Source: Roseobacter weihaiensis (GTDB lineage: Bacteria; Pseudomonadota; Alphaproteobacteria; Rhodobacterales; Rhodobacteraceae). From it: a stretch of 64,000 nucleotides of DNA. A program made the position numbers and the translations under genes. The notes below the pieces were generated by a model. It worked only from the letters and a program-made list of their open reading frames with translations. It was not told the DNA's origin and did not search any database. The stretch spans positions 1-64,000 of the forward strand of contig NZ_JACNMO010000011.1 in NCBI RefSeq assembly GCF_020622345.1, in the 5' to 3' direction. Below are positions 40,585 to 52,464 of this stretch, in pieces. Positions within the stretch are counted from its first letter, which is position 1. Each line of letters starts with the position of its first letter.

Positions 40585-40791
40585 TTAAAGAAAACCCAGA
40601 TGGTTCAAGGCTTTACCTGCCTCTTCCTTTTGCTCGGCGGTGCCGAAAAGCAGGGCATCATTCAGCTCTGACACCAGGGTGCTCAGCGAGCGGTCTTGCA
40701 CGCATTTTCTCACAAAAGGCGGCACCTCCGCCTGCTCAAGGACCAAGACTCCAGCCGCTGGCGAAACGTCGTTCAAGGTATAGTGCTTCAT
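40585..40791 (-). CDS. Small conserved-looking protein, unknown
   Basis: The 68-residue protein (MKHYTLNDVSPAAGVLVLEQ ...) starts at ATG 40791 behind a G-rich ribosome-binding site (GGGGGGACG). It is predicted mostly helical and has no signal peptide. The composition is protein-like rather than that of a shadow frame, but I recognise no family. The open frame extends upstream to 40950 without homology. Confidence 0.5.
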   Translation of the reverse strand: MKHYTLNDVSPAAGVLVLEQAEVPPFVRKCVQDRSLSTLVSELNDALLFGTAEQKEEAGKALNHLGFL

Positions 40792-40953: not shown

Positions 40954-43900
40954 TCAGGTCTCTTGTGGCAAATCGAGCGCGATCTCGCCACCGGGTTCAG
41001 CCGCGCGCGATTGGCAGAGGATCATCGCACCTTGGCGCTGCGCTGCGGAGAGCACAAAATCGCGGTGTTCGACCCTGCCGGACAAGACCGCGCACTTGCA
41101 GACACCGCACAGCCCGTCAGAACATTTCAGATCGACAGGCACACCTGCCGCGATCAGCGCCTCGGCTGCGGACTGGCTGGCCTCGACCGGCACGCGCTGG
41201 CCATTGCGCAGCACCACTGTGAAGGGGTGGTTTTCATAGTCCGGTGCATCGGGAACGGAGAAATACTCCAGATGCCGCGCGTCCGGCGGAAAGCCTGCAC
41301 GCTCTGCCGCACGCAGCACGGCCGCCATGTAGGGATCGGGCCCGCAGGTATAGACATGGTCCCCCGCCCTGTGGTCCTGGAAGATGTCACCCAGATCGGC
41401 GCGTCCGCCTTCGTCGGATACATGCAGTTTTACGCGATCAGACCACGGCATGCCCTGCAACGCCGGGATAAAGGCCCCTTCCGCGCGCGTGGAGACCGAA
41501 TAGTGCAGCACAAAGTGGGCCCCCTGTTGGGAGAGCCTGTGCGCCATCGCGATCATGGGCGTCACCCCGATCCCGCCGCCCATCAGAAAACTGCGGGTGG
41601 CCTCCGCATGCAGCGGGAAGTGATTGATCGGTTTGGACACAAAGACCTTGCGCCCCACTTCAAAGAGGCGGTGGAGCATGGCGGAGCCGCCTTTGCCCGC
41701 CTCTTCCCGCAGCACCGCGATCTGGTAGCTGCGCCGGTCCGCCGGGTCGCCCATCAGGGAATACTGGCGCAGCAGGTCCGGGGTCACCACGATATCAATA
41801 TGTGCACCCGCCTCCCAGACAGGCAGTTCCGTGCCCTCCACCGCCCGGAATGTGTAACGCGTGACCTTATCCGTCAGCACCTCCGCCGCTTCGATTTCAA
41901 CCTGCACGACAGGGTTATCGGTTGAGGGCTGGTAGGTGTGATCCCAGTCTCCTGTCTCACCCGCGGCCCGGCGGCGCCGGTATTCGGGCGCGGCGATCAT
42001 CTCGCGGTAGGCCTTGATGCCCGCCTCACGATCCATCGCAAAGGGGTACGGCCAGGGCGGCGGTGCCAAAGGTGCGGGGTAGACCGCAAGTGTCTGGTCT
42101 TCGTACCTCAGATCGAGATCGGTTTGCAGATCACGGGCATTTACCGGCGCGCGGGCGGGGTGGTATCCGCCGTCCTCATAAAGCTCGATGTCCCACCACC
42201 ACTTCTTGATCGGTTTGAGACCGCCGTTCCCCAGCCTGTCGTCAAGACGCGCCAGCACCGGGGCCGCCTGCGGGATCGTCATGGCCACCCGGCGAAAGGG
42301 CTTTTCCGCAAAGAGACCTTCGAGGTTCCACGGGCAGGTCTTCATGCAGCGTCCGCACATCGACCCGCCGGACGTGGTGATGCGGTAGGTGGCACATTTC
42401 TGGCTGTCCGATTTCCAGATCTCATAGCCGTTGAACATCAGTTTCGGACCGGCGGAAATCGCCCCTGAAGGGCACTCCCGAGCGCATTTATTGCAGCTTT
42501 CGCAAAAGCGCTGCAGCCCGAAATCGATGGGCTTGTCGTGGGCCATCGGCATGTCCGTGGTGACGACCCCCGATTTCAGGCGGGGCCCCAGAAACGGGTT
42601 CAGGATGACCTCGCCGATGCGGCTGACCTCCCCCAGACCAGAGAGCAGCAGCAAGGGCGGCTGCAGGACTTCGCCGTCCATCACGGTGTGGGCCTTGGCC
42701 TTGTATCCCAGCCGCCGGATATGGCTGGCGATTACCCCGCCGAGCAGCGAGAAGCGCAGGTAGGCGCGCATCGACTGTGCCACGCTGATCCAGTCATCAC
42801 CCGATGCGCCCTCCATCGTCTCGAAACCCTGGTCGATGATCATGCTGATGGCCTGATCGTGCGGTGGCGTGATCGGCGCGCCGGTGGCATCATGGCTGTA
42901 CCAGGTCCAATCCGGGCAGCGGCTGAGCCCCACCGCATCGACCCCCAGAAAATAACTCGCAGCCTTGATTGCGGCGGCGTTCTCTTCGGGGGTGCCTGCG
43001 TGTTTTGGCCTGGCAGACGGCCCGTCCTGAAACAGGATCAGCGCCCCCAGCATGCGGCGCTGCGCCATGGAGGGCGCTGATTTACGGGCATAGTATCCGC
43101 CCGCCGCTGCCGACTGAACGGCCTTGCCCATATCGCCGAACTGGGCGCGGGCAAACATATCCGTGCGCTTTGGCACCCGCGCCACCCGCGCTTCATCGAT
43201 ATAGGTTGTGGGCGTTTCCACCCGTTTGAGCGTCTCGAAGGGATGGGGCCCCGACGCAAAGTCACGCCGCGCAAAGGGATCGCGGTTGAGCGCGGATTTC
43301 ACTGTCCCCACCCCCAGCCACCAGGCAGGGGCATTGGTGGCCCAGGCGGTTTGCGCGGGTCTCGGGGCCAGTGGACGGTCGTGCGCGATTTCCAGTGTCG
43401 TGGTAACCACTGCGAGCCCGAACCGGTCCCCAAGGTAGGGGGTCTGCAAACGCCCGTCTTCCACGACACAAAGCCCCGCCGCCACGGCCAACCGGTTCAG
43501 GTCAACATCCGTGCTGGTGGCCGTATGGGCCTTGGCGTCCCAGCCCAGCAACCTGATGTAGTTCGCAAGCACAACAGCGGTTTCGGAGGCGCGCAGACAG
43601 GCGCGGTGGGCCTGCGCCCCCTCGATCCAGTCGTAGCCGGGCTCATCCGGGCGCGGATCGCGCGGCATCTCGTAGAGAAAGACAAGCGCGTGGGCGTGAT
43701 CCACAATGGTTGTGGGCGGCGCTTCCATACTGTCGCGCAGGTCGGCCATGATCGTATCAATACCCGATGCCAGCGTCTTCACCTGTTTCGATTTCAACTC
43801 CTGCGCCAGCCGGTCGATATCCGGGTTGCGCCGGGGCCGCGCCAGCACGGTCGTTTCCGGCAGGGGCCCCGCGCCAACCATCGACGCATCGCAGAAATAG

Positions 43901-44175
43901 CCGAAGGATTTCAGGTGGGCCGCCCGCTCCGCCGGATCATCCGGACAGGTCGCCCGGGTGCGATTGACCAAACCGTCGCGCAGCGCATCCATCGTGGCCT
44001 GATATTCCGCCATGGCAGGCACAATGGACAAGGGGTTATCCTCCCGACGAAACACGAGCGGTTGCATCGAGGGCACCTGTGTCAAATCCGGCATGTCACC
44101 GCGCACCAGACGCTCCATCGGGTAAGGTCCCAGATGCGGCGCACGGTTTTTGGTCGAAAAGAACCTGACGGTCAT
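40954..44175 (-). CDS. Self-sufficient cobamide-dependent reductive dehalogenase (RdhA fused to a reductase)
   Basis: The 1073-residue cytoplasmic protein has no Tat signal. Residues 90-270 are a vestigial cobalamin-fold half. Residues 400-550 are the B12-binding catalytic half, with Tyr426 (DWTWYSHD) and Lys492/494 (GYKAKAH) as candidate proton donors. Two [4Fe-4S] motifs follow: C558-x2-C-x2-C-x3-CP and C607-x2-C-x3-CP, with C594 as a further ligand. Residues 755-970 are a ferredoxin-NADP reductase module (RQYSL 803-807, GGGIGVTP 867-874, CGPDPYM 944-950). The end is a plant-type [2Fe-2S] domain (C1018, C1023, C1026, C1054). This is the architecture of catabolic, NADPH-driven dehalogenases such as BhbA of Comamonas, not membrane respiratory RdhA. 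The substrate is likely a halogenated aromatic. It lies 133 bp downstream of the GMC gene on the same strand. Confidence 0.88.
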   Translation of the reverse strand: MTVRFFSTKNRAPHLGPYPMERLVRGDMPDLTQVPSMQPLVFRREDNPLSIVPAMAEYQATMDALRDGLVNRTRATCPDDPAERAAHLKSFGYFCDASMVGAGPLPETTVLARPRRNPDIDRLAQELKSKQVKTLASGIDTIMADLRDSMEAPPTTIVDHAHALVFLYEMPRDPRPDEPGYDWIEGAQAHRACLRASETAVVLANYIRLLGWDAKAHTATSTDVDLNRLAVAAGLCVVEDGRLQTPYLGDRFGLAVVTTTLEIAHDRPLAPRPAQTAWATNAPAWWLGVGTVKSALNRDPFARRDFASGPHPFETLKRVETPTTYIDEARVARVPKRTDMFARAQFGDMGKAVQSAAAGGYYARKSAPSMAQRRMLGALILFQDGPSARPKHAGTPEENAAAIKAASYFLGVDAVGLSRCPDWTWYSHDATGAPITPPHDQAISMIIDQGFETMEGASGDDWISVAQSMRAYLRFSLLGGVIASHIRRLGYKAKAHTVMDGEVLQPPLLLLSGLGEVSRIGEVILNPFLGPRLKSGVVTTDMPMAHDKPIDFGLQRFCESCNKCARECPSGAISAGPKLMFNGYEIWKSDSQKCATYRITTSGGSMCGRCMKTCPWNLEGLFAEKPFRRVAMTIPQAAPVLARLDDRLGNGGLKPIKKWWWDIELYEDGGYHPARAPVNARDLQTDLDLRYEDQTLAVYPAPLAPPPWPYPFAMDREAGIKAYREMIAAPEYRRRRAAGETGDWDHTYQPSTDNPVVQVEIEAAEVLTDKVTRYTFRAVEGTELPVWEAGAHIDIVVTPDLLRQYSLMGDPADRRSYQIAVLREEAGKGGSAMLHRLFEVGRKVFVSKPINHFPLHAEATRSFLMGGGIGVTPMIAMAHRLSQQGAHFVLHYSVSTRAEGAFIPALQGMPWSDRVKLHVSDEGGRADLGDIFQDHRAGDHVYTCGPDPYMAAVLRAAERAGFPPDARHLEYFSVPDAPDYENHPFTVVLRNGQRVPVEASQSAAEALIAAGVPVDLKCSDGLCGVCKCAVLSGRVEHRDFVLSAAQRQGAMILCQSRAAEPGGEIALDLPQET

Positions 44176-44308: not shown

Positions 44309-45919
44309 TCAGACCGTTTCGAGCACGAGATCGGAGGCTTTTTCGCCAATCATGATCGCAGGGGCATTGGTGTTGCCCGATACGATTTCCGGCATGATCG
44401 AACAATCCGCCACCCGCAGCCCCTTGATGCCATGCACCCGCAGCTTGCTGTCCACAACGGCATCCGCATCATCGCCCATTTTGCAGGTGCCCGTGGGGTG
44501 GTAGATCGAGGCGGTGTTGCTGCGGGCCCAATCCAGCGTGGCGTCATAATCCTCCATATCGAGATCCGCGTGCGGGCGATACTCCTCCGAAATCTTGGAG
44601 GTCAGCGGCGCATGACGCGCAATCTTGCGGGCGATGTTGACGCCCGCGACGATCGTGCGGCAATCGGTTTCCGTCGACAGGTAGTTCGGCACGATCTTGG
44701 GGTAGGTGCGCGGGTTCGACGACGCGAGGCGAATCTCGCCCTTGCTTTCAGGGCGCAATTGGCAAACCGACATGGTGAAGGCGGAAAACTTATCTGCCCC
44801 TTTCCCCGGATTCTCCGCCGACAGCGGCTGCACGTGGAACTGGATATCCGGCGTCTCAAGATCATCGCGCGTCTTGAGGAAGCCAGTGGCAAGACTTGCC
44901 GCCATGGTCATGGGACCTGCACGGAAAAGGATGTATTTCAGCCCGATCCGCGCCTGTCCCATCAGGCTCGATACCTCGTCGTTGAGCGTGGGTTCATTGC
45001 ATTTGTAGACAAGGCGCGCCTGCAGGTGGTCTTGCAGGTTCTTGCCGACACCCGGCAAGGATTTCACCACCTCGATCCCATTGGCCGCCAGTTGCTCGGG
45101 CTCGCCAATGCCCGACAACATCAAGAGCTGGGGCGAATTGATCGCCCCCCCGCAGAGCACAATCTCCCTGCGTGCGGTCACCGTCTGCTGCTGCCCGCTG
45201 CGATTGGTATAGGTCACACCCGTGGCGCAGCCATCGGCAATCTCGATCCTGTCTGCCTGCGCATGGGTGATGATGGTCAGGTTCGGACGCGTTTTGGCAG
45301 GCTTGAGATACGCCACCGCCGAACTGCATCGCCGCCCGTTTTTGGCCGTCAGCTGGAAAAACCCGACACCTTCCTGAACCGCGCCGTTGTAGTCAGGGTT
45401 AAAGGCATAGCCCGCCGCCTGTGCTGCTGCGACCCAGGCATCCGTGATCGGACGCTGGATGCGCATGTTCGACACTGCCAGTGGCCCCTGATCGCCGTGA
45501 TACGCGTCAGCGCCGCGCTCGTTGCACTCGGCCCGTTTGAAGAGCGGCAGCACATCGTCCCAGCCCCAGCCGGTGTTCCCCATCTGGCGCCACCGGTCGT
45601 AGTCCTGTGGCTGTCCCCGCACATACAGAAGACCGTTCAGAGAGGACGAGCCTCCCAGCACCTTGCCGCGCGGCCACTCAATGGATCGCCCGTTCAGGCC
45701 GGGATCCGGTTCCGTTTTGTAACACCAGTCCACGGCCGGATTATGGATTGTTTTGAAGTATCCGACCGGAATATGGATCCAGGGGTTCAGGTCACGGCCC
45801 CCGGCCTCGAGCAAGATCACCTTGTGCTTTGGGTTTGCGCTCAGTCGGTTTGCAAGAACACATCCCGCAGAACCTGCACCAATGACGATAAAATCTGCTT
45901 CCACGCGCGCAACCTCCAT
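44309..45919 (-). CDS. GMC-family FAD alcohol/choline dehydrogenase-like oxidoreductase
   Basis: The 536-residue flavoenzyme has the ADP-binding GAGSAG motif at residue 14, GMC signature 1 GKVLGGSSSLNGLLYVRG near 84, signature 2 GGAINSPQLLMLSGIG near 258, and the active-site His in SIYHPTGTCKMG near 465 with the partner Asn in GNTNAPAIMIGE near 510. It oxidises a primary alcohol to aldehyde. ATG 45919 precedes the conserved DFIVIGAG; an earlier start at 45943 would reach into the operator-like repeats. It is divergent from the TRAP operon and upstream of the dehalogenase gene, so probably in the same catabolic pathway. Confidence 0.9.
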   Translation of the reverse strand: MEVARVEADFIVIGAGSAGCVLANRLSANPKHKVILLEAGGRDLNPWIHIPVGYFKTIHNPAVDWCYKTEPDPGLNGRSIEWPRGKVLGGSSSLNGLLYVRGQPQDYDRWRQMGNTGWGWDDVLPLFKRAECNERGADAYHGDQGPLAVSNMRIQRPITDAWVAAAQAAGYAFNPDYNGAVQEGVGFFQLTAKNGRRCSSAVAYLKPAKTRPNLTIITHAQADRIEIADGCATGVTYTNRSGQQQTVTARREIVLCGGAINSPQLLMLSGIGEPEQLAANGIEVVKSLPGVGKNLQDHLQARLVYKCNEPTLNDEVSSLMGQARIGLKYILFRAGPMTMAASLATGFLKTRDDLETPDIQFHVQPLSAENPGKGADKFSAFTMSVCQLRPESKGEIRLASSNPRTYPKIVPNYLSTETDCRTIVAGVNIARKIARHAPLTSKISEEYRPHADLDMEDYDATLDWARSNTASIYHPTGTCKMGDDADAVVDSKLRVHGIKGLRVADCSIMPEIVSGNTNAPAIMIGEKASDLVLETV

Positions 45920-45921
45920 GT

Positions 45922-45968
45922 AGTATGAGAAAACTCTATGCAAAAACGATTAATCATACTAGAGTTTT
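45922..45968. promoter_or_regulatory. Candidate operator between the GMC and TRAP operons
   Basis: Two pairs of complementary half-sites lie in the 92-bp divergent promoter region. AGTATGA (45922-45928) pairs with TCATACT (45954-45960), and AAAACTCT (45930-45937) pairs with AGAGTTTT (45961-45968). The second copy has its two halves in swapped order, so it is not a single palindrome. GATTAATC (45948-45955) is palindromic as well. It is likely the binding site of the IclR regulator encoded at the end of the TRAP operon. Confidence 0.5.
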
Positions 45969-46011: not shown

Positions 46012-47241
46012 ATGAAAGTACAGAACAATATCAAGGGTATATCACGCCGGGATCTTTTCCGGATTGCGGGCCGTTATGGCCTGAGTTCAACGCTGCTGGC
46101 CGCAGGCAGTTTCGGCGGGGCCATGAGCGTCGCCAATCTGGCCGCCGCGGCTGAGTCGAGTTACGAAAAGCGCTTTGCAAAAGAAGCCAAATTTACCCTC
46201 AAGTTGGGGGCCGCGGGCTTTAACCCGCAAAACCTCTTGATTGAACGCGCCGGTGTTCTGGAGTTCGCACGCGATCTGGAAAGCCGGACCGACGGTGAGA
46301 TTCGTGTCGAATTCATCGGCAACAACCAGATCTGTAACCAGCTCTCCTGCGTCGAGAAAACGCAGCAGGGGATCGTCGACATGTATTCGGCGTCCACGCA
46401 GAACTCTGCCGGCGGTGCACCCTATCTGAACGTGCTGGACTATGCGTATATGTTCCGGTCCCGCGCGGACCAGTACTATTTCATGTACAGCCCGGAATCG
46501 CAGCGTATCCTGCGCGAGCCTTTCGAGCAGCGTCACGGTCTGAAGTTCCTGTTCAGCCACGCTGAGTTGCGCGGCATCCAACTCGGTCTGGCCTGGGAAG
46601 ACCGGCCCACCGTCACCAGCATCGAAGAGCTGTTCGGCTCCAAGAACCGCGTCACGGGCACGCAGCTCGGCCGCATCGCGATGAACGCTCTCAACCTGAA
46701 CCCGGTGCCGATCGCCTGGGAGGAAACGCTCGACGGCCTCAAGCAGGGTCTGATCGATGGGGCGGAAACATGGGCCTCGGCTGTGGCATATGCCAACATG
46801 TCGCCCGTGGTCAGCCAATCCGTTGACCTGCGCTTCTTCTGCGGTACTGAGCACACAGCGATGTCGGCCTCTGTCTTTGACAGCCTCGGCGGCGATTTGC
46901 AGGACGCAGTGATGGAATCGTCCTACCTCGCACAGGTGCACGTGCAGGCGGCCAACGAAGCGGCCCTGGTCAACACCGTTGGTGCAACCGATCCGCAGCT
47001 TCCCGGCACAATCTTTGCCGAGAACAACGTGCGCATGGCGATGCTGTCCGATGCAGAGCGCAAGAAAGCCGAAGAGATGTGCTCGCCCGAGTTCCAGCCC
47101 CAGCTCTGGGAACAGTGGCGCGAGCGGATCAACGGCTGGGCCGGTGGCATCGACACCTACCAGGACATCTACAACGACGTGCGCAACAACCCGCACACGC
47201 TGGCCGAAAACGTCGAGCCACGCCGGTGGTGGAAGGCCTGA
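46012..47241 (+). CDS. dctP: TRAP transporter substrate-binding protein (DctP family)
   Basis: The 409-residue periplasmic solute receptor has a twin-arginine leader (SRRDLFRIAG at residues 11-20, hydrophobic to about 45, cleavage near AAAAES), so it is exported folded. The DctP fold is visible in EIRVEFIGNNQICNQ near 101, GAPYLNVLDYAYMF near 138 and the conserved GTQLGRIAMNALNLNPVPIAW stretch near 217, where the substrate carboxylate-binding Arg usually sits. GGGAGGA at 46001-46007 is a strong ribosome-binding site. The ligand is unknown; the locus context suggests an aromatic or halogenated acid. Confidence 0.92.
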   Translation: MKVQNNIKGISRRDLFRIAGRYGLSSTLLAAGSFGGAMSVANLAAAAESSYEKRFAKEAKFTLKLGAAGFNPQNLLIERAGVLEFARDLESRTDGEIRVEFIGNNQICNQLSCVEKTQQGIVDMYSASTQNSAGGAPYLNVLDYAYMFRSRADQYYFMYSPESQRILREPFEQRHGLKFLFSHAELRGIQLGLAWEDRPTVTSIEELFGSKNRVTGTQLGRIAMNALNLNPVPIAWEETLDGLKQGLIDGAETWASAVAYANMSPVVSQSVDLRFFCGTEHTAMSASVFDSLGGDLQDAVMESSYLAQVHVQAANEAALVNTVGATDPQLPGTIFAENNVRMAMLSDAERKKAEEMCSPEFQPQLWEQWRERINGWAGGIDTYQDIYNDVRNNPHTLAENVEPRRWWKA

Positions 47242-47264
47242 GCCACAGGCTGACACATCAACAG

Positions 47265-47296
47265 CCGGTTCCCTAAGGGGGGCCGGTATTTTTTCC
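47265..47296 (+). terminator. Intra-operon hairpin/attenuator between dctP and dctQ
   Basis: A 9-bp stem (CCGGTTCCC at 47265-47273 with 47278-47286, including two T-G pairs) and a 4-nt loop are followed by TATTTTTTCC. It lies 23 bp after the dctP stop. It probably lets most transcripts stop after dctP, giving an excess of binding protein over membrane subunits. Confidence 0.75.
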
Positions 47297-47387
47297 GCAG
47301 CTGCGAAAAACTGATCTGGGCGCATATCCGCACGCAACACATCAGTGCAAATCGGGGCGTGGACCAAACCTTTGGGAGGGACAGGGT

Positions 47388-48056
47388 TTGTCGATACTTT
47401 CTGATATGGGAACGATCCTCTCAGCGCTTGCTTCGCAGGACAGCTTTGAGATCACCAATTCGATGCGCTCGGACGCCAAGTGGTATCTGGGCGTCATTGC
47501 CGTTGCGATAGGGGGATATCTGGTCTCCCTTGTTTATCGCAAACTACCCTTTGTCGAGCGTCATCTGGAACGCACGATCATGGTGTATTCTTATCTGGCG
47601 ATTGCCTTCATCATTTTCTGGGGTGTTGTGGACCGCTTTGTCTTTAACAACCAGCAGCCCTGGTCCACCACGATCCCGCCGTTCCTGTTTATGGTGATGG
47701 CATGGTTTGGCGCGGCCTATAACATACGCCTACGTACGCACCTGAGCTTTTCGGAGTTTCGCACCAAGATGCCACGGATCGGGCAGATTTCCTGCCTGTG
47801 GCTCGACTTCTTTTTGTGGTTCGGCTTTGCGCTCATCCTTTTTGTCACAACCAGCCGACTGACGGCAAACTCAGCCGCCAACTTTCAGATCGTGCTGGGC
47901 ACGGATAACACGATGCAATGGTGGTTCCTCATCACCGCACCCTTCGCGGCCCTTCTGATGGCCGGGCGCGCCTTTCAGAACATTGCCGATGACATGCGAA
48001 AATACCGCTCCGGCGAGCCGCTCATCGAACAAGCTGTCATCGGGGGAGATGCGTAA
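47388..48056 (+). CDS. dctQ: TRAP transporter small permease (DctQ)
   Basis: The 222-residue inner-membrane protein has four main helices (about residues 33-50, 65-85, 96-110 and 140-200 in two). It probably starts at TTG 47388, because GGGAGGG at 47374-47380 is spaced 7 nt from it; the in-frame ATG at 47406 is 25 nt away. It partners with DctM in Na+-driven secondary uptake. Its TAA overlaps the dctM ATG by one base. Confidence 0.85.
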   Translation: MSILSDMGTILSALASQDSFEITNSMRSDAKWYLGVIAVAIGGYLVSLVYRKLPFVERHLERTIMVYSYLAIAFIIFWGVVDRFVFNNQQPWSTTIPPFLFMVMAWFGAAYNIRLRTHLSFSEFRTKMPRIGQISCLWLDFFLWFGFALILFVTTSRLTANSAANFQIVLGTDNTMQWWFLITAPFAALLMAGRAFQNIADDMRKYRSGEPLIEQAVIGGDA

Positions 48057-49414
48057 TGGCTGATGGTTCCTGGATTACTCTTATCTCTCTGGCCGTCACC
48101 ATGCTCTTTATGTTGGGTGTGCCGGTGCTTCTGGTCATCGCCTATTGGGTGATTGGCTGCTCCTTCGTTCTGGGTCTGACGCTCGACAATATGGGCGCCG
48201 AGCTGATGAACGTCTTCAACAAGGGTTTTGCCCTGCTGGCGATGCCGCTCTTTATTCTGACCGGGGACTTGATCAACAAATCTGGCATTGCGCGAAGGCT
48301 CTCTGATTTTGCCTACGCCTGTCTGGGTTGGCTCAGGGGCGGTCTGGCGATGGCATCCCTGGGGGCTTGCGGGCTCTTTGCCGCGATCTCCGGGTCGAAC
48401 TCCGCAACCACGGCCACCATCGGGTCGATGCTGCATCCTGAAATGGTCAAGGGCGGCTATGACGAGCGCTTCTCTGCGGCCACGGCGGCGGCGGGCGGCA
48501 CGGTCGGGATCATTATCCCGCCCTCGATCATCTTCATCGTCTATGGCTTCTTGATGAACCTGCCGATCTCGGACCTCTTCGTGGCCGGTATCATTCCGGG
48601 CGCGCTGATGGTCTTTGCCATGCAGTTCGCCTGCTGGGTGATCTGCCGGATCAACGGCTGGGGCTACCTGATCCCGCTGCAACTCACCCGTGTGCTGAAG
48701 ATGGCCTTTGGCGCTTGGCTGGGGTTCTTTGCCATCGGTCTGGTACTCTGGGGCATCTACACCGGCAAGTTCTCCCCAACCGAAGCCGCTGGCGTGACGG
48801 TGGGCTTCTGCGTCATCGCAGGTCTCTTGAGCTGGGCGCTGAGCCGCCTTTTCCGGATCAAGCCAGACAAGGACTGGACGGAAAAGAGCTACGCCGAAAT
48901 GCTGCTGGTGGAAGGCTTCACCATCCCGCAAATCCCCGGCATCGTGGTTCGCTCTGCCCAGATCACGGGAATTCTGGCACCTCTTATCGCGATCTCCGTA
49001 GTGATGCAGCAGATCCTGTCGCTGCTGGGTGCACAGCAGGTGATTGGCGATTTCGTGATCTCCATGGGCGGCTATTATGCGGTACTGGCGACGGCGATGC
49101 TGATCGTATTCGTCTCGGGCATGGTGCTGGAATCCCTGCCCGTCACGATCATCCTCGCGCCGATCCTGGCACCGATTGCAGCCAGCGTCGGGGTCGATCC
49201 GGTGCACTTCTCGGTGATCTTCCTCGTGGGGGCCTCGATCGGCTTCATCACACCGCCTTATGGTTTGAACCTCTACGTTGCATCAGGCGTGACCGGGGTG
49301 CCGTATTTCCGGTTGCTCAAGTACTCTACAATGTATCTGGTATCACTGATGGCGATCTGGTTTTTTGTGGCTTTGACACCGGAAACTGCGCTATTCCTAT
49401 TGCCTGATAGATAA
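48056..49414 (+). CDS. dctM: TRAP transporter large permease (DctM)
   Basis: The 452-residue membrane transporter of the ion-transporter superfamily has about twelve helices. Diagnostic stretches are AMPLFILTGDLINKSGIARRL near residue 63, AAISGSNSATTATIGSMLHPEM near 107 and GGTVGIIIPPSIIFIVYG near 148, with a matching FITPPYGLNLYVASG repeat near 398. It carries the substrate handed over by DctP, driven by Na+. Confidence 0.93.
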   Translation: MADGSWITLISLAVTMLFMLGVPVLLVIAYWVIGCSFVLGLTLDNMGAELMNVFNKGFALLAMPLFILTGDLINKSGIARRLSDFAYACLGWLRGGLAMASLGACGLFAAISGSNSATTATIGSMLHPEMVKGGYDERFSAATAAAGGTVGIIIPPSIIFIVYGFLMNLPISDLFVAGIIPGALMVFAMQFACWVICRINGWGYLIPLQLTRVLKMAFGAWLGFFAIGLVLWGIYTGKFSPTEAAGVTVGFCVIAGLLSWALSRLFRIKPDKDWTEKSYAEMLLVEGFTIPQIPGIVVRSAQITGILAPLIAISVVMQQILSLLGAQQVIGDFVISMGGYYAVLATAMLIVFVSGMVLESLPVTIILAPILAPIAASVGVDPVHFSVIFLVGASIGFITPPYGLNLYVASGVTGVPYFRLLKYSTMYLVSLMAIWFFVALTPETALFLLPDR

Positions 49415-49425
49415 GACGAGACCCC

Positions 49426-50205
49426 ATGCCTGACGACCTCACTTCGGATAAACAAGGACAGATACCAACCAACTTAAGGTTGCTGTACTTACTGGAAGGG
49501 GTCGCCAAGGCCGGGGTCCCGGTTACCCCCTCAGCGCTCAAAGATACGCTGAACCTGCCGAAACCCACGCTCCACCGTTTGTTTCACACAGCAGAGGAGG
49601 CCGGCTATCTGCAACGCGATCTCGACGGCCGGTCCTACAGCCCCGGCCCTCGGCTGCGCCGACTGGCGGTCAATACGCTGTCGTCACAGCGCGTCCGCAT
49701 GGTCCGCCTGAGCATCCTGCGCCGGGTAGCCGAGGAAATTGGCGAGACCTGCAATATCGCCACGCCCGACCGCGATGGAATGATCTACCTTGACCGGGTC
49801 GAAACCCACTGGCCGTTGCGCATCCAACTCCCTGTGGGCTCACAGGTGCCGTTTCACTGCACCGCCAGTGGCAAGATGTATCTCGCCTCCCTGCGTCCTG
49901 CCTACCTGGACCGGTTTCTGGCCAACGCGACCCTGGACGAGCGCGTCGCGGGGACCATTACCGACGAAACCCTCCTGAAAGCGGAGCTGGAGACGACCCG
50001 CAAGCGCGGTTATTCGACCGATGCGGAGGAATTCATGGATGGCATGGCAGCGGTCGCCGTGCCGATCTATGACATGCAGCACAGGTTGGTTTCGACACTC
50101 TCGGTCCATGCGCCGCTGCAACGGCTCGGGTTGAGCGACCTCGTCGCCAAGGTCGATCTGTTAAAGGATGCAGCACATGAGTTGTCGGAACTCATCAACA
50201 CCTGA
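49426..50205 (+). CDS. IclR-family transcriptional regulator
   Basis: The 259-residue regulator has an N-terminal winged helix (LRLLYLLEGVAKAGVPVTPSALKDTLNLPKPTLHRLFHTAEEAGYL spread over residues 18-62) and a C-terminal GAF-like effector domain (VPFHCTASGKMYLA near 142, STDAEEFMDGMAAVAVPIYD near 200). It is 11 bp after dctM and the last gene of the TRAP operon, so the likely regulator of both divergent units through 45922-45968. The effector may be the transported compound or its product. Confidence 0.9.
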   Translation: MPDDLTSDKQGQIPTNLRLLYLLEGVAKAGVPVTPSALKDTLNLPKPTLHRLFHTAEEAGYLQRDLDGRSYSPGPRLRRLAVNTLSSQRVRMVRLSILRRVAEEIGETCNIATPDRDGMIYLDRVETHWPLRIQLPVGSQVPFHCTASGKMYLASLRPAYLDRFLANATLDERVAGTITDETLLKAELETTRKRGYSTDAEEFMDGMAAVAVPIYDMQHRLVSTLSVHAPLQRLGLSDLVAKVDLLKDAAHELSELINT

Positions 50206-50229: not shown

Positions 50230-52464
50230 TCAGGCGAAATCAATGTGTTTGTAAAATGGCATTTCCCGCAACCGCTGGCCTGTGGCATCAAAAATCGCGT
50301 TTGCCAGAGCGGGGGCTGCTGGCGGCACCGGCGGCTCACCCACACCCTTGACGGTGAAATGCGTCTCCAGCCCGCGCACGAAAATCTCCGGGCTTTGATC
50401 AAAGCGCAGGCCTTCGGCATCGTGGTAATTGCTCTGTTCGGCCTGACCCTCTGCATAGGTGATCTCTGAATTGATGGCGTGGCCGAGGCCCCAGATGACG
50501 CCCCCCTGCACCTGATTTTCGAAATTGACCGGGTCGATGACACGGCCCACATCTGCCGCCACCCAGACCTTGTCGATCCGAATGCCCTGCGGCGTGGCGC
50601 TCACCTCCACCACCTCTGCGGTAGGCACCCCGAAGCTTTCCACGAGCGCGACGCCACGCCCTTTGCCCGACGCCAGCGGGCTGCCCCAGTTTGACATCTC
50701 CGCGACCGCCTCCAGCGTGCCACGTGCGGCATCCCAGCGACACAGGCGCAGACGCTCTTCCATCGGGTCCGCCCCGGCCGCGTGGATCAATTCGTCCAGA
50801 AACCCTTCCAGAAAAAAGCCGCAAGAGGATGCCCCGACCGCCCGCCAACTGGAGGTCGGGGCGAGACCCGGCGTCCGAAACGCCCTGACCCGAAAGTTAT
50901 CGATCGCATAAGGCGCATTCCAGGCCCCCGCAGCAATCTGGATATCGGGGCCCAGAAACGGATAGCCCAGCCGGTCAAGCTGCGAGGCAATCGGCGCTGG
51001 CGCCGCAATGTCGAGCGCAAGCGCCTGCACCTTCCCCCCCGCGACAGCCCCGCGCGCCCGGCTCATCCCCATGTGACGGGGATAGTCCTGGGCAAAGTCT
51101 TCTTCGCGGCTGTAGGTCAGTTTGATCGGGGTGCCCTTCATCTGAACCGCAATCTCTGCGGCATGCAGCACGTGATCCATCTCCAGCCGGTGACCAAAGC
51201 TGCCGCCGGCGTATTGGTTGCGCAGCACCACCTGATCCTTGCGGTGGTTCGTGATCCGCGCCACCGCGCGTTGCACGAAGGGGGGCAGCTGGGTCGAGGT
51301 CCAGACCTCCACCCGGTCTTCCGTGACCCTGACCGTCGCGTTGAGTGGCTCAAGCGGCTGATGGGCCACATAGGGCGCGCGGTACTCCGCCGCGATCACC
51401 TCAGCCGACAACGCCGCCTCAACATCCCCGTCGTCGCGCCAGGTTGCATCCCACCGCGCGTCGGTAAAGGAGGCGGCAAGCGCCTCCCAATGCGCGGCCT
51501 GCTCGGCGGGGTAAGGGGCCGGGCCCCAGGCAGGCTCCAGCGCCAAAGCCGCCTGCATCGCCGTCCAGGTGTTGTCGGCGACAACCGCGAAGCCCTTGCT
51601 GATCCGCAGGGCCGAGACCACGCCCGGCATGTCCTGTGCGAGGCTCAGATCCGCGTCGCCCACCGCGCCGCGATAGGGCGACAGGCGGATGGCTGCAAAA
51701 AGCATGCCATCGAGCCGGATGTCGATGCCGTAGCTCTGCATCCCGGTGGATTTGGCGACCACATCCTGCCGCAGCGTCGGCTGGCCGATCAGCTTCCAGT
51801 CAGCCGGGTCGCGCAGGGCCACATCCTGGTCGGGCTCAAGCAGAGCTGCCTCTTCGGCAAGCGCCTGATAGGGCACCGCAGTGCCATCGGCTAAAATCAC
51901 GGACCCAGCTTGGGTGCGCAGGTCCGCAGGCTCAACGCCGTACGCCAGTGCAGCCGCCCGTTTGAGCGTTTCACGTGCCACAGCGCCCGCCACGCGCAGC
52001 TTGACGAAACTGTCCGGCACCGAACTGGAGCCCCCGGTGCCCTGCAGCCCGATGACCTTGCTCAGCGCGCCGAGGGCATCACGTGAGGTTTCCGCCAGCA
52101 TGCCGCGATCAGTGGTGGCAAAGGGCACCCCCTCAGCCGCCATGGCGGTGTTGTAATAGGCTGGCGCGGGCGGGCCGAACGCCGTCTCGAACTGGCCCGG
52201 CTCAAGATCAAGCTCTTCGGCCAGAAGCAGCGCCTGCATATGCACGACACCCTGCCCCACATCGACATGTGGCGTGATCAGCGTGATGCGATCCGCGCTG
52301 ATCTTGACCCAGGGGTTGAAGCTGGCCTCAGAGGGCCGCAGGCCTTCACGCAGAGGGTTTTCAGGTGTCTGGACAAGCTTGTAGACGCCAAAGGCGACCC
52401 CGCCGGCAATCGCAGCCGATCCAACCAGAAACCCGCGACGGGCAATTTTTCCGACCCGAGACAT
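50230..52464 (-). CDS. Xanthine-dehydrogenase-family molybdenum subunit (isoquinoline 1-oxidoreductase beta-like)
   Basis: The 744-residue periplasmic molybdenum hydroxylase subunit has a Tat leader (ARRGFLVGSA at residue 8). Mo-pterin segments include HVDVGQGVVHMQALLLAEEL near 65, QYAGGSFGHRLEMDH near 420 and the active-site Glu in KGVGEPPVPPAAP near 710. IorB-type enzymes hydroxylate N-heterocycles or aldehydes and need a small [2Fe-2S] subunit (IorA), which is not adjacent. The start is only 10 bp after the anbu stop, so it may be transcribed with that operon. The cofactor could come from the moaD/moaE-dependent pathway. Confidence 0.88.
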   Translation of the reverse strand: MSRVGKIARRGFLVGSAAIAGGVAFGVYKLVQTPENPLREGLRPSEASFNPWVKISADRITLITPHVDVGQGVVHMQALLLAEELDLEPGQFETAFGPPAPAYYNTAMAAEGVPFATTDRGMLAETSRDALGALSKVIGLQGTGGSSSVPDSFVKLRVAGAVARETLKRAAALAYGVEPADLRTQAGSVILADGTAVPYQALAEEAALLEPDQDVALRDPADWKLIGQPTLRQDVVAKSTGMQSYGIDIRLDGMLFAAIRLSPYRGAVGDADLSLAQDMPGVVSALRISKGFAVVADNTWTAMQAALALEPAWGPAPYPAEQAAHWEALAASFTDARWDATWRDDGDVEAALSAEVIAAEYRAPYVAHQPLEPLNATVRVTEDRVEVWTSTQLPPFVQRAVARITNHRKDQVVLRNQYAGGSFGHRLEMDHVLHAAEIAVQMKGTPIKLTYSREEDFAQDYPRHMGMSRARGAVAGGKVQALALDIAAPAPIASQLDRLGYPFLGPDIQIAAGAWNAPYAIDNFRVRAFRTPGLAPTSSWRAVGASSCGFFLEGFLDELIHAAGADPMEERLRLCRWDAARGTLEAVAEMSNWGSPLASGKGRGVALVESFGVPTAEVVEVSATPQGIRIDKVWVAADVGRVIDPVNFENQVQGGVIWGLGHAINSEITYAEGQAEQSNYHDAEGLRFDQSPEIFVRGLETHFTVKGVGEPPVPPAAPALANAIFDATGQRLREMPFYKHIDFA

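Follow-up and report, generated by a model that had tools for sequence, protein, structure and literature searches.

What does the long open reading frame (ORF) at 40954–44175 of the stretch studied here encode, and what might its product do for the cell? The stretch (the window) comprises 64,000 nucleotides, positions 1 to 64,000 of contig NZ_JACNMO010000011.1 from Roseobacter weihaiensis. An earlier note had described the ORF as a gene for a single-chain cytoplasmic reductive dehalogenase (RdhA) with a built-in NADPH reductase, through which an aerobic marine bacterium would use organohalides as a carbon source. We find that the gene very probably encodes a cytoplasmic, self-sufficient catabolic RdhA that works as outlined below. 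Its use for carbon supply is plausible, and the marine setting agrees with that of the relatives.

Architecture and active site of the RdhA protein

The position given earlier holds a real, intact ORF, but the strand needs correction: the frame lies on the minus strand, starts with ATG and encodes 1073 amino acids, and stops interrupt plus-strand frame 1 (Table 1). The protein scores 218.2 bits against the NCBIfam reductive dehalogenase subfamily model TIGR02486 (cut-off 160.35), and Pfam recognises a double [4Fe-4S] domain and a [2Fe-2S] domain in it. The best solved relative is NpRdhA of Nitratireductor pacificus (PDB 4RAS, 6ZXU), which phmmer matched (4ras) at E 6.6e-164 over residues 4–103 and 159–742. 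The dehalogenase parts are 44.4% identical over 577 positions, and NpRdhA lacks the reductase module that the window protein carries. BhbA (WP_015585978), encoded on plasmid pBHB of Comamonas sp. 7D-2, shares the full-length architecture, all cluster ligands and the Ser/Tyr/Lys/Arg set of the active site, with 50.8% identity across 1064 positions. The assignment to the reductive dehalogenases is secure, and the proposed membership in the BhbA/NpRdhA class of single-chain, cytoplasmic catabolic enzymes is borne out. Judged by eye, with no signal-peptide program, the N-terminus (MTVRFFSTKNRAPHLGP...) has neither a twin-arginine (Tat) nor a hydrophobic leader, as the note had said, and none of the 17 other window ORFs scanned gave a membrane-anchor-like Pfam match.

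The two predicted [4Fe-4S] motifs are present with all eight cysteines, Cys558/561/564/568 in a CX2CX2CX3CP arrangement and Cys594/607/610/614 for the second cluster. At the C-terminal end, a plant-type [2Fe-2S] site is formed by Cys1018/1023/1026/1054. It closes a module (residues ~750–1060) whose top sequence matches are the reductase domains of CYP116B P450s (6KBH, 6LAA) and phthalate dioxygenase reductase (PDOR; 2PIA). Foldseek also matched this module to structures of the PDOR type; unlike in 2PIA, 6KBH and 6LAA, it is joined here to a dehalogenase. R803-x-Y-S806 is presumably its flavin motif. The built-in reductase with its [2Fe-2S] end is thus real, and the use of NADPH, not seen directly in the protein, is suggested by its relatives.

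Aligned to NpRdhA and BhbA, the protein keeps the Tyr/Lys pair expected of this class. Ser468, Tyr472, Lys534 and Arg598 align with Ser422, Tyr426, Lys488 and Arg552 of NpRdhA, for which excerpts of PMC7565698 give the roles of Ser, Lys and Arg (substrate hydroxyl) and Tyr (proton donor). The catalytic tyrosine had been placed at 426, which is NpRdhA numbering; residue 426 of the window protein is another, conserved tyrosine. Residues 160–269 align internally to residues 439–550 (37% identity, E 3e-16), a match for which only 1 of 200 shuffled controls reached even E 1e-3. This N-terminal copy lacks the Tyr/Lys pair, having Cys193 at the position of Tyr472 and Gly253 at that of Lys534. It fits the vestigial duplication of the B12 domain that is said to distinguish catabolic RdhAs (PMC10463259, in excerpt). 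About 42 further residues at 104–158, as judged from an alignment gap, are absent from NpRdhA; they are a candidate for the insert over the active site that the same paper describes in RdhA–PDOR fusions.

The closest functional precedent is JtRdhA of Jhaorihella thermophila (WP_104007082), whose host is marine and belongs to the Rhodobacterales, as does the window's host. By its published description, and not by sequence, it resembles the window protein in the duplicated B12 domain, the two [4Fe-4S] clusters, the fused PDOR module, the missing Tat signal and the active-site trio. Excerpts of PMC10463259 describe JtRdhA as an NADPH-driven debrominase and deiodinase of phenolic compounds that is active in air, uses one NADPH per product and allows E. 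coli W to grow on 3-bromo-4-hydroxyphenylacetate; it did not turn over those chlorinated and fluorinated counterparts that were tried. Because JtRdhA and BhbA share its architecture, the window protein belongs to the self-sufficient catabolic RdhAs. The type is already characterised (PMC10463259, in excerpt), so the earlier note needs correction on its status, and the window gene by itself is ordinary. Ros_A3X954 from a Roseobacter sp. is likewise a catabolic-type debrominase of the Roseobacter group without a Tat signal, but its cluster motifs at residues 283–294 and 337–345 make it a short type, unlike the window protein, and it is reported to be oxygen-sensitive (PMC13101508, in excerpt).

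By analogy with these enzymes, NADPH would most likely reduce a flavin in the C-terminal module, probably flavin mononucleotide (FMN) as in JtRdhA. Electrons would then travel by way of the plant-type [2Fe-2S] cluster and both [4Fe-4S] clusters to cobalamin, bound in the second of the two B12 folds, the first being vestigial. Ser468, Lys534 and Arg598 would hold the phenol hydroxyl, the ortho halogen would pass to the reduced cobalt, and the proton would come from Tyr472, which Lys534 would tune, giving halide and a plain phenolic acid that would enter PobA/protocatechuate or homogentisate catabolism. The enzyme would probably be monomeric like NpRdhA and may tolerate oxygen like JtRdhA. Likely substrates are 3-bromo, 3-iodo and 3,5-dihalo 4-hydroxybenzoates or 4-hydroxyphenylacetates. 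The note had allowed debromination or dechlorination: JtRdhA supports the former, and its lack of activity on the chloro and fluoro analogues tested, next to its turnover of bromo- and iodophenols, makes chlorinated substrates less likely.

Several points weigh against this reading. The note had proposed structure prediction as a check; an AlphaFold model matched the NpRdhA fold (Foldseek ranks 1–14 were all NpRdhA chains), but it was built with 36 close relatives, which is too shallow, and its mean pLDDT (predicted local distance difference test) is 67.2. The score falls below 50 at residues 498–531 and 552–619, within the cofactor core, so the fold match adds little beyond the sequence match. 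The substrate pocket differs from that of NpRdhA at six positions (F290 to Met340, K307 to Ala357, F310 to Tyr362, P311 to Ala363, A419 to Val465 and N452 to Val498), and substrate preference may therefore differ; BhbA has S/S/A at NpRdhA positions 310/419/452, against Y/V/V in the window protein. Finally, none of the catabolic genes accompanies rdhA generally, and pobA was not found near it in 75 of the 77 family loci described below.

Table 1. Features of the rdhA locus, in window coordinates
Feature	Position	Strand	Basis or remark
rdhA-type gene, self-sufficient catabolic reductive dehalogenase (very probable)	40954..44175	-	1073 aa; Pfam, phmmer, NCBIfam, motif and alignment evidence
Vestigial N-terminal cobalamin-binding domain copy, codons 160-269	43369..43698	-	internal alignment to residues 439-550
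Active cobalamin domain part, codons 439-550 (Val465, Ser468, Met469, Tyr472, Val498, Lys534)	42526..42861	-	NpRdhA alignment
Two [4Fe-4S] motifs and Arg598, codons 558-617	42325..42504	-	motif reading, NpRdhA alignment
Phthalate-dioxygenase-reductase-like module, codons 750-1060	40996..41928	-	sequence and fold matches
GMC oxidoreductase, choline-dehydrogenase-like, upstream neighbour	44309..45943	-	probably outside the system
TRAP dctP (46012-47241), dctQ (47388-48056), dctM (48056-49414), IclR (49426-50205)	46012..50205	+	probably outside the system

Conservation and distribution

We searched for the gene in a set of 18 genus relatives and four family genomes of other genera, in a family draw of one genome per genus (match limit E 1e-250), and in named genomes. 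Full-length rdhA was present in all 18 genus relatives and in one of the four others. The family draw yielded it in 79 of 198 genomes including the window's own, that is in 78 of 197 other genera; two of the 79 matches (G136, G133) are partial. In the named-genome scan, run at E 1e-3, at least 565 of at least 594 candidate stretches were confirmed as relatives, and the best 80 of these, many of them from Ruegeria, are the 80 named loci referred to here (L022 duplicates L006). Matches in the genus, the family draw and the named genomes alike show that rdhA is common among these bacteria. Literature searches over partial listings of titles and abstract openings returned no statement to that effect, which is not proof of absence. 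Searched by title or abstract opening, neither self-sufficient RdhA in Alphaproteobacteria nor rdhA with Rhodobacterales and horizontal transfer returned any paper; the corresponding search for bromotyrosine with reductive dehalogenase or homogentisate returned, among others, work on anaerobic sponge Desulfoluna.

The residues on which the assignment depends are kept throughout. An alignment of 104 rows (the window protein, the 18 genus relatives, one further family relative, the 80 named loci, BhbA, two plasmid relatives and NpRdhA) has the active-site Ser, Met, Tyr, Lys and Arg and all eight [4Fe-4S] cysteines in every row, and the four [2Fe-2S] cysteines in 103; only NpRdhA, lacking the reductase, departs from this. 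All of these residues are likewise kept in the readable family loci outside the genus (76/76).

Ten of the 18 genus relatives (G002–G007, G011, G013–G015) also contain matches to the dehalogenase part alone, in open frames of 388–422 amino acids with 29–34% identity. These are possibly of the short Ros_A3X954-like type; a match of this kind was not found in the window's own genome.

Neighbouring genes and the role of the enzyme

Detoxification, in which toxic phenols from algae or haloperoxidases are debrominated or deiodinated without growth, is a serious rival to a role in carbon supply; we lean away from it, yet it has a real chance of being right. The family loci bear directly on this question. 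They come from 77 other genera, 76 of them usable and a number shortened by contig ends, and rdhA is mostly solitary in them: no neighbour family is common to more than 8 of the 76. The commonest is a MarR-like regulator, which lies within 61 bases upstream of rdhA in seven of its eight loci. Both results favour detoxification, as does the enzyme's own reductase module, which would supply the electrons.

Catabolic genes do adjoin some rdhA copies, which argues against detoxification. When nine query genes (hmgA, fahA, maiA, the flavin adenine dinucleotide (FAD) monooxygenase, MBL-fold, MarR, ABC-type binding protein, pobA and ligB) were sought near rdhA in the 77 family loci, MarR was matched in nine, pobA in two, maiA and the monooxygenase in one each and the other five in none. 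In both pobA loci (L178, L173) the gene scores over the TIGR02360 cut-off and lies at most 400 bases from rdhA; about 0.04 such immediate neighbours would be expected under random gene order, pobA being one of nine queries. On the Nitratireductor plasmid pOM-1, pobA lies 3.4 kb from rdhA. The BhbA gene, unlike that of the window, lies among genes for LigA, a class III dioxygenase, a tricarboxylate-type binding protein and a porin on a conjugative plasmid. Within the genus, rdhA adjoins hmgA, fahA and maiA in L110 and fahA in L114, and both loci have an FAD monooxygenase gene of the PRK08132 type and an MBL-fold gene nearby.

The window's own genome holds the downstream routes, with pobA, pcaH and hmgA over curated cut-offs and a homogentisate cluster (hmgA–fahA–monooxygenase) on another contig, without rdhA; its cobN gene likewise scores over the curated cut-off. 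Together with the growth that JtRdhA confers on E. coli W, these routes argue against detoxification. A second homogentisate 1,2-dioxygenase gene in this genome survives as fragments with internal stops (C35:164895–165687); the intact copy is on C57.

Homogentisate genes were also considered as general neighbours of rdhA and rejected: they adjoin it in only 2 of the 18 genus relatives, and hmgA was near rdhA in 0/80 named and 0/77 family loci, a number of the latter being cut by contig ends. Within 7 kb of rdhA in the 80 named loci, the commonest gene encodes an FAD oxidoreductase (20/80), and a molybdenum-hydroxylase set recurs, its FAD subunit appearing in 19 of these loci, its Mo subunit in 17, its [2Fe-2S] subunit in 13 and a MoaD-like protein in 12. 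In L064 (13328–17179) and the similar loci L067 and L083, genes for FAD, [2Fe-2S] and Mo subunits resembling xanthine dehydrogenase and 4-hydroxybenzoyl-CoA reductase come after rdhA in the same orientation, and L064 adds one for a MoaD-like protein. The molybdenum-cofactor protein gene at 50230–52464 of the window was rejected as a pathway part, being near rdhA in 1/80 named and 1/77 family loci.

The window itself offers another arrangement. A GMC gene is followed after 133 bases by rdhA on the same strand, with genes for a TRAP transporter and an IclR regulator divergent beyond. In a dedicated cluster, a halogenated aromatic alcohol or acid would enter through the transporter, the alcohol would be oxidised by the GMC enzyme, RdhA would dehalogenate and IclR would regulate; we consider this improbable. 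In its favour, the GMC and TRAP genes adjoin rdhA in the same order in 7 of the 18 genus relatives, with IclR likewise where the fetched stretch reaches. Yet GMC is a one-copy gene in 18/18 (E 1e-200 or better), and in the other 11 the GMC–dctPQM–IclR block is intact with rdhA elsewhere. The site without rdhA can be inspected directly in several of these 11, which retain the small ORF or further genes of the window locus.

Beyond the genus, 25 other genomes of the family draw carry this dctP, 17 with rdhA and eight without at the E 1e-250 limit. The two genes lie within 8.2 kb of each other, and indeed within 5 kb, in 2 of the 17 (G072, G157), against an estimated ~0.07 at random placement, and on different contigs or far apart in the other 15. 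The rdhA gene is commoner with this dctP (17/25) than without it (61/172; Fisher p 0.004, uncorrected for kinship). Near the same block, on varying sides and above chance, rdhA also occurs outside the genus in L059 (an uncultured Shimia), L164 and L201, but in L164 the surroundings of rdhA gave no GMC match, and in L201 rdhA and GMC are separated by two other ORFs. Clearly the block can do without rdhA, and rdhA without the block. A loose tie may exist, because closeness and co-occurrence of dctP and rdhA exceed chance in the family draw. The neighbours are weak evidence on the substrate, and we set them aside as a clue since the block stands without adjoining rdhA in 11/18.

The slot that rdhA occupies in the window, flanked by the GMC gene on one side and the small ORF on the other, is nearly empty in L125 and L126 (227–258 bases) and holds an unrelated gene of 720–741 amino acids, with a secretion-like N-terminus by eye, in L127–L131, L133 and L134. 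The small ORF was not found in L132 and L135. In the window it lies at 40585–40791 on the minus strand and encodes 68 amino acids without a Pfam match. Its recurrence in 12 of the 18 genus relatives, at 40–51% identity and located downstream of either rdhA or GMC, indicates that it is probably a real small protein.

That the protein is instead an epoxyqueuosine-reductase-like B12 enzyme or a decayed pseudo-enzyme is very improbable. A weak match to the QueG model TIGR00276 (23 bits, cut-off 200) speaks for it; against it, TIGR02486 is over its cut-off, the active-site and cluster residues are invariant and the frame is unbroken.

Three rdhA lineages within the genus

Each of the 18 genus relatives (L003–L009, L011–L021) has one full-length rdhA, at differing loci, and the copies fall into three lineages: the window gene with seven relatives, a group of nine whose pocket is of the N498/F362 type, and the pair that adjoins homogentisate genes (L110, L114). 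A single clade for the genus was rejected (p-AU 4e-5, quick tree of 54 rows), and the rdhA tree requires at least three changes even on the starred branches alone. Either replacement by transfer or an ancient duplication followed by loss would produce this pattern. At NpRdhA positions A419/N452/F310 the window protein has V465/V498/Y362 and the nine relatives have V/N/F. As judged from the alignment, these positions may shape specificity, and the genus, which has both a V498/Y362 and an N498/F362 pocket type, lends itself to comparing substrate specificity between the two.

Presence in 18/18 congeners and 78/197 genera suggests that aerobic debromination and deiodination of phenolic acids is routine, not specialist, in these bacteria. 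We propose, tentatively and as an idea that may well prove wrong, that removing ortho halogens from phenolic acids is close to obligatory in the genus and carried by a single gene copy, as if that gene were repeatedly replaced from three lineages while the function stays, its usual job being to unlock natural halogenated tyrosine-like acids. What deserves follow-up is that the whole genus has retained the gene through three lineages. If the proposal is true, 3-bromo- and 3-iodo-4-hydroxyphenylacetate and -benzoate would be fed to the homogentisate and protocatechuate routes, and aerobic dehalogenation would be a housekeeping activity in marine bromine and iodine cycling.

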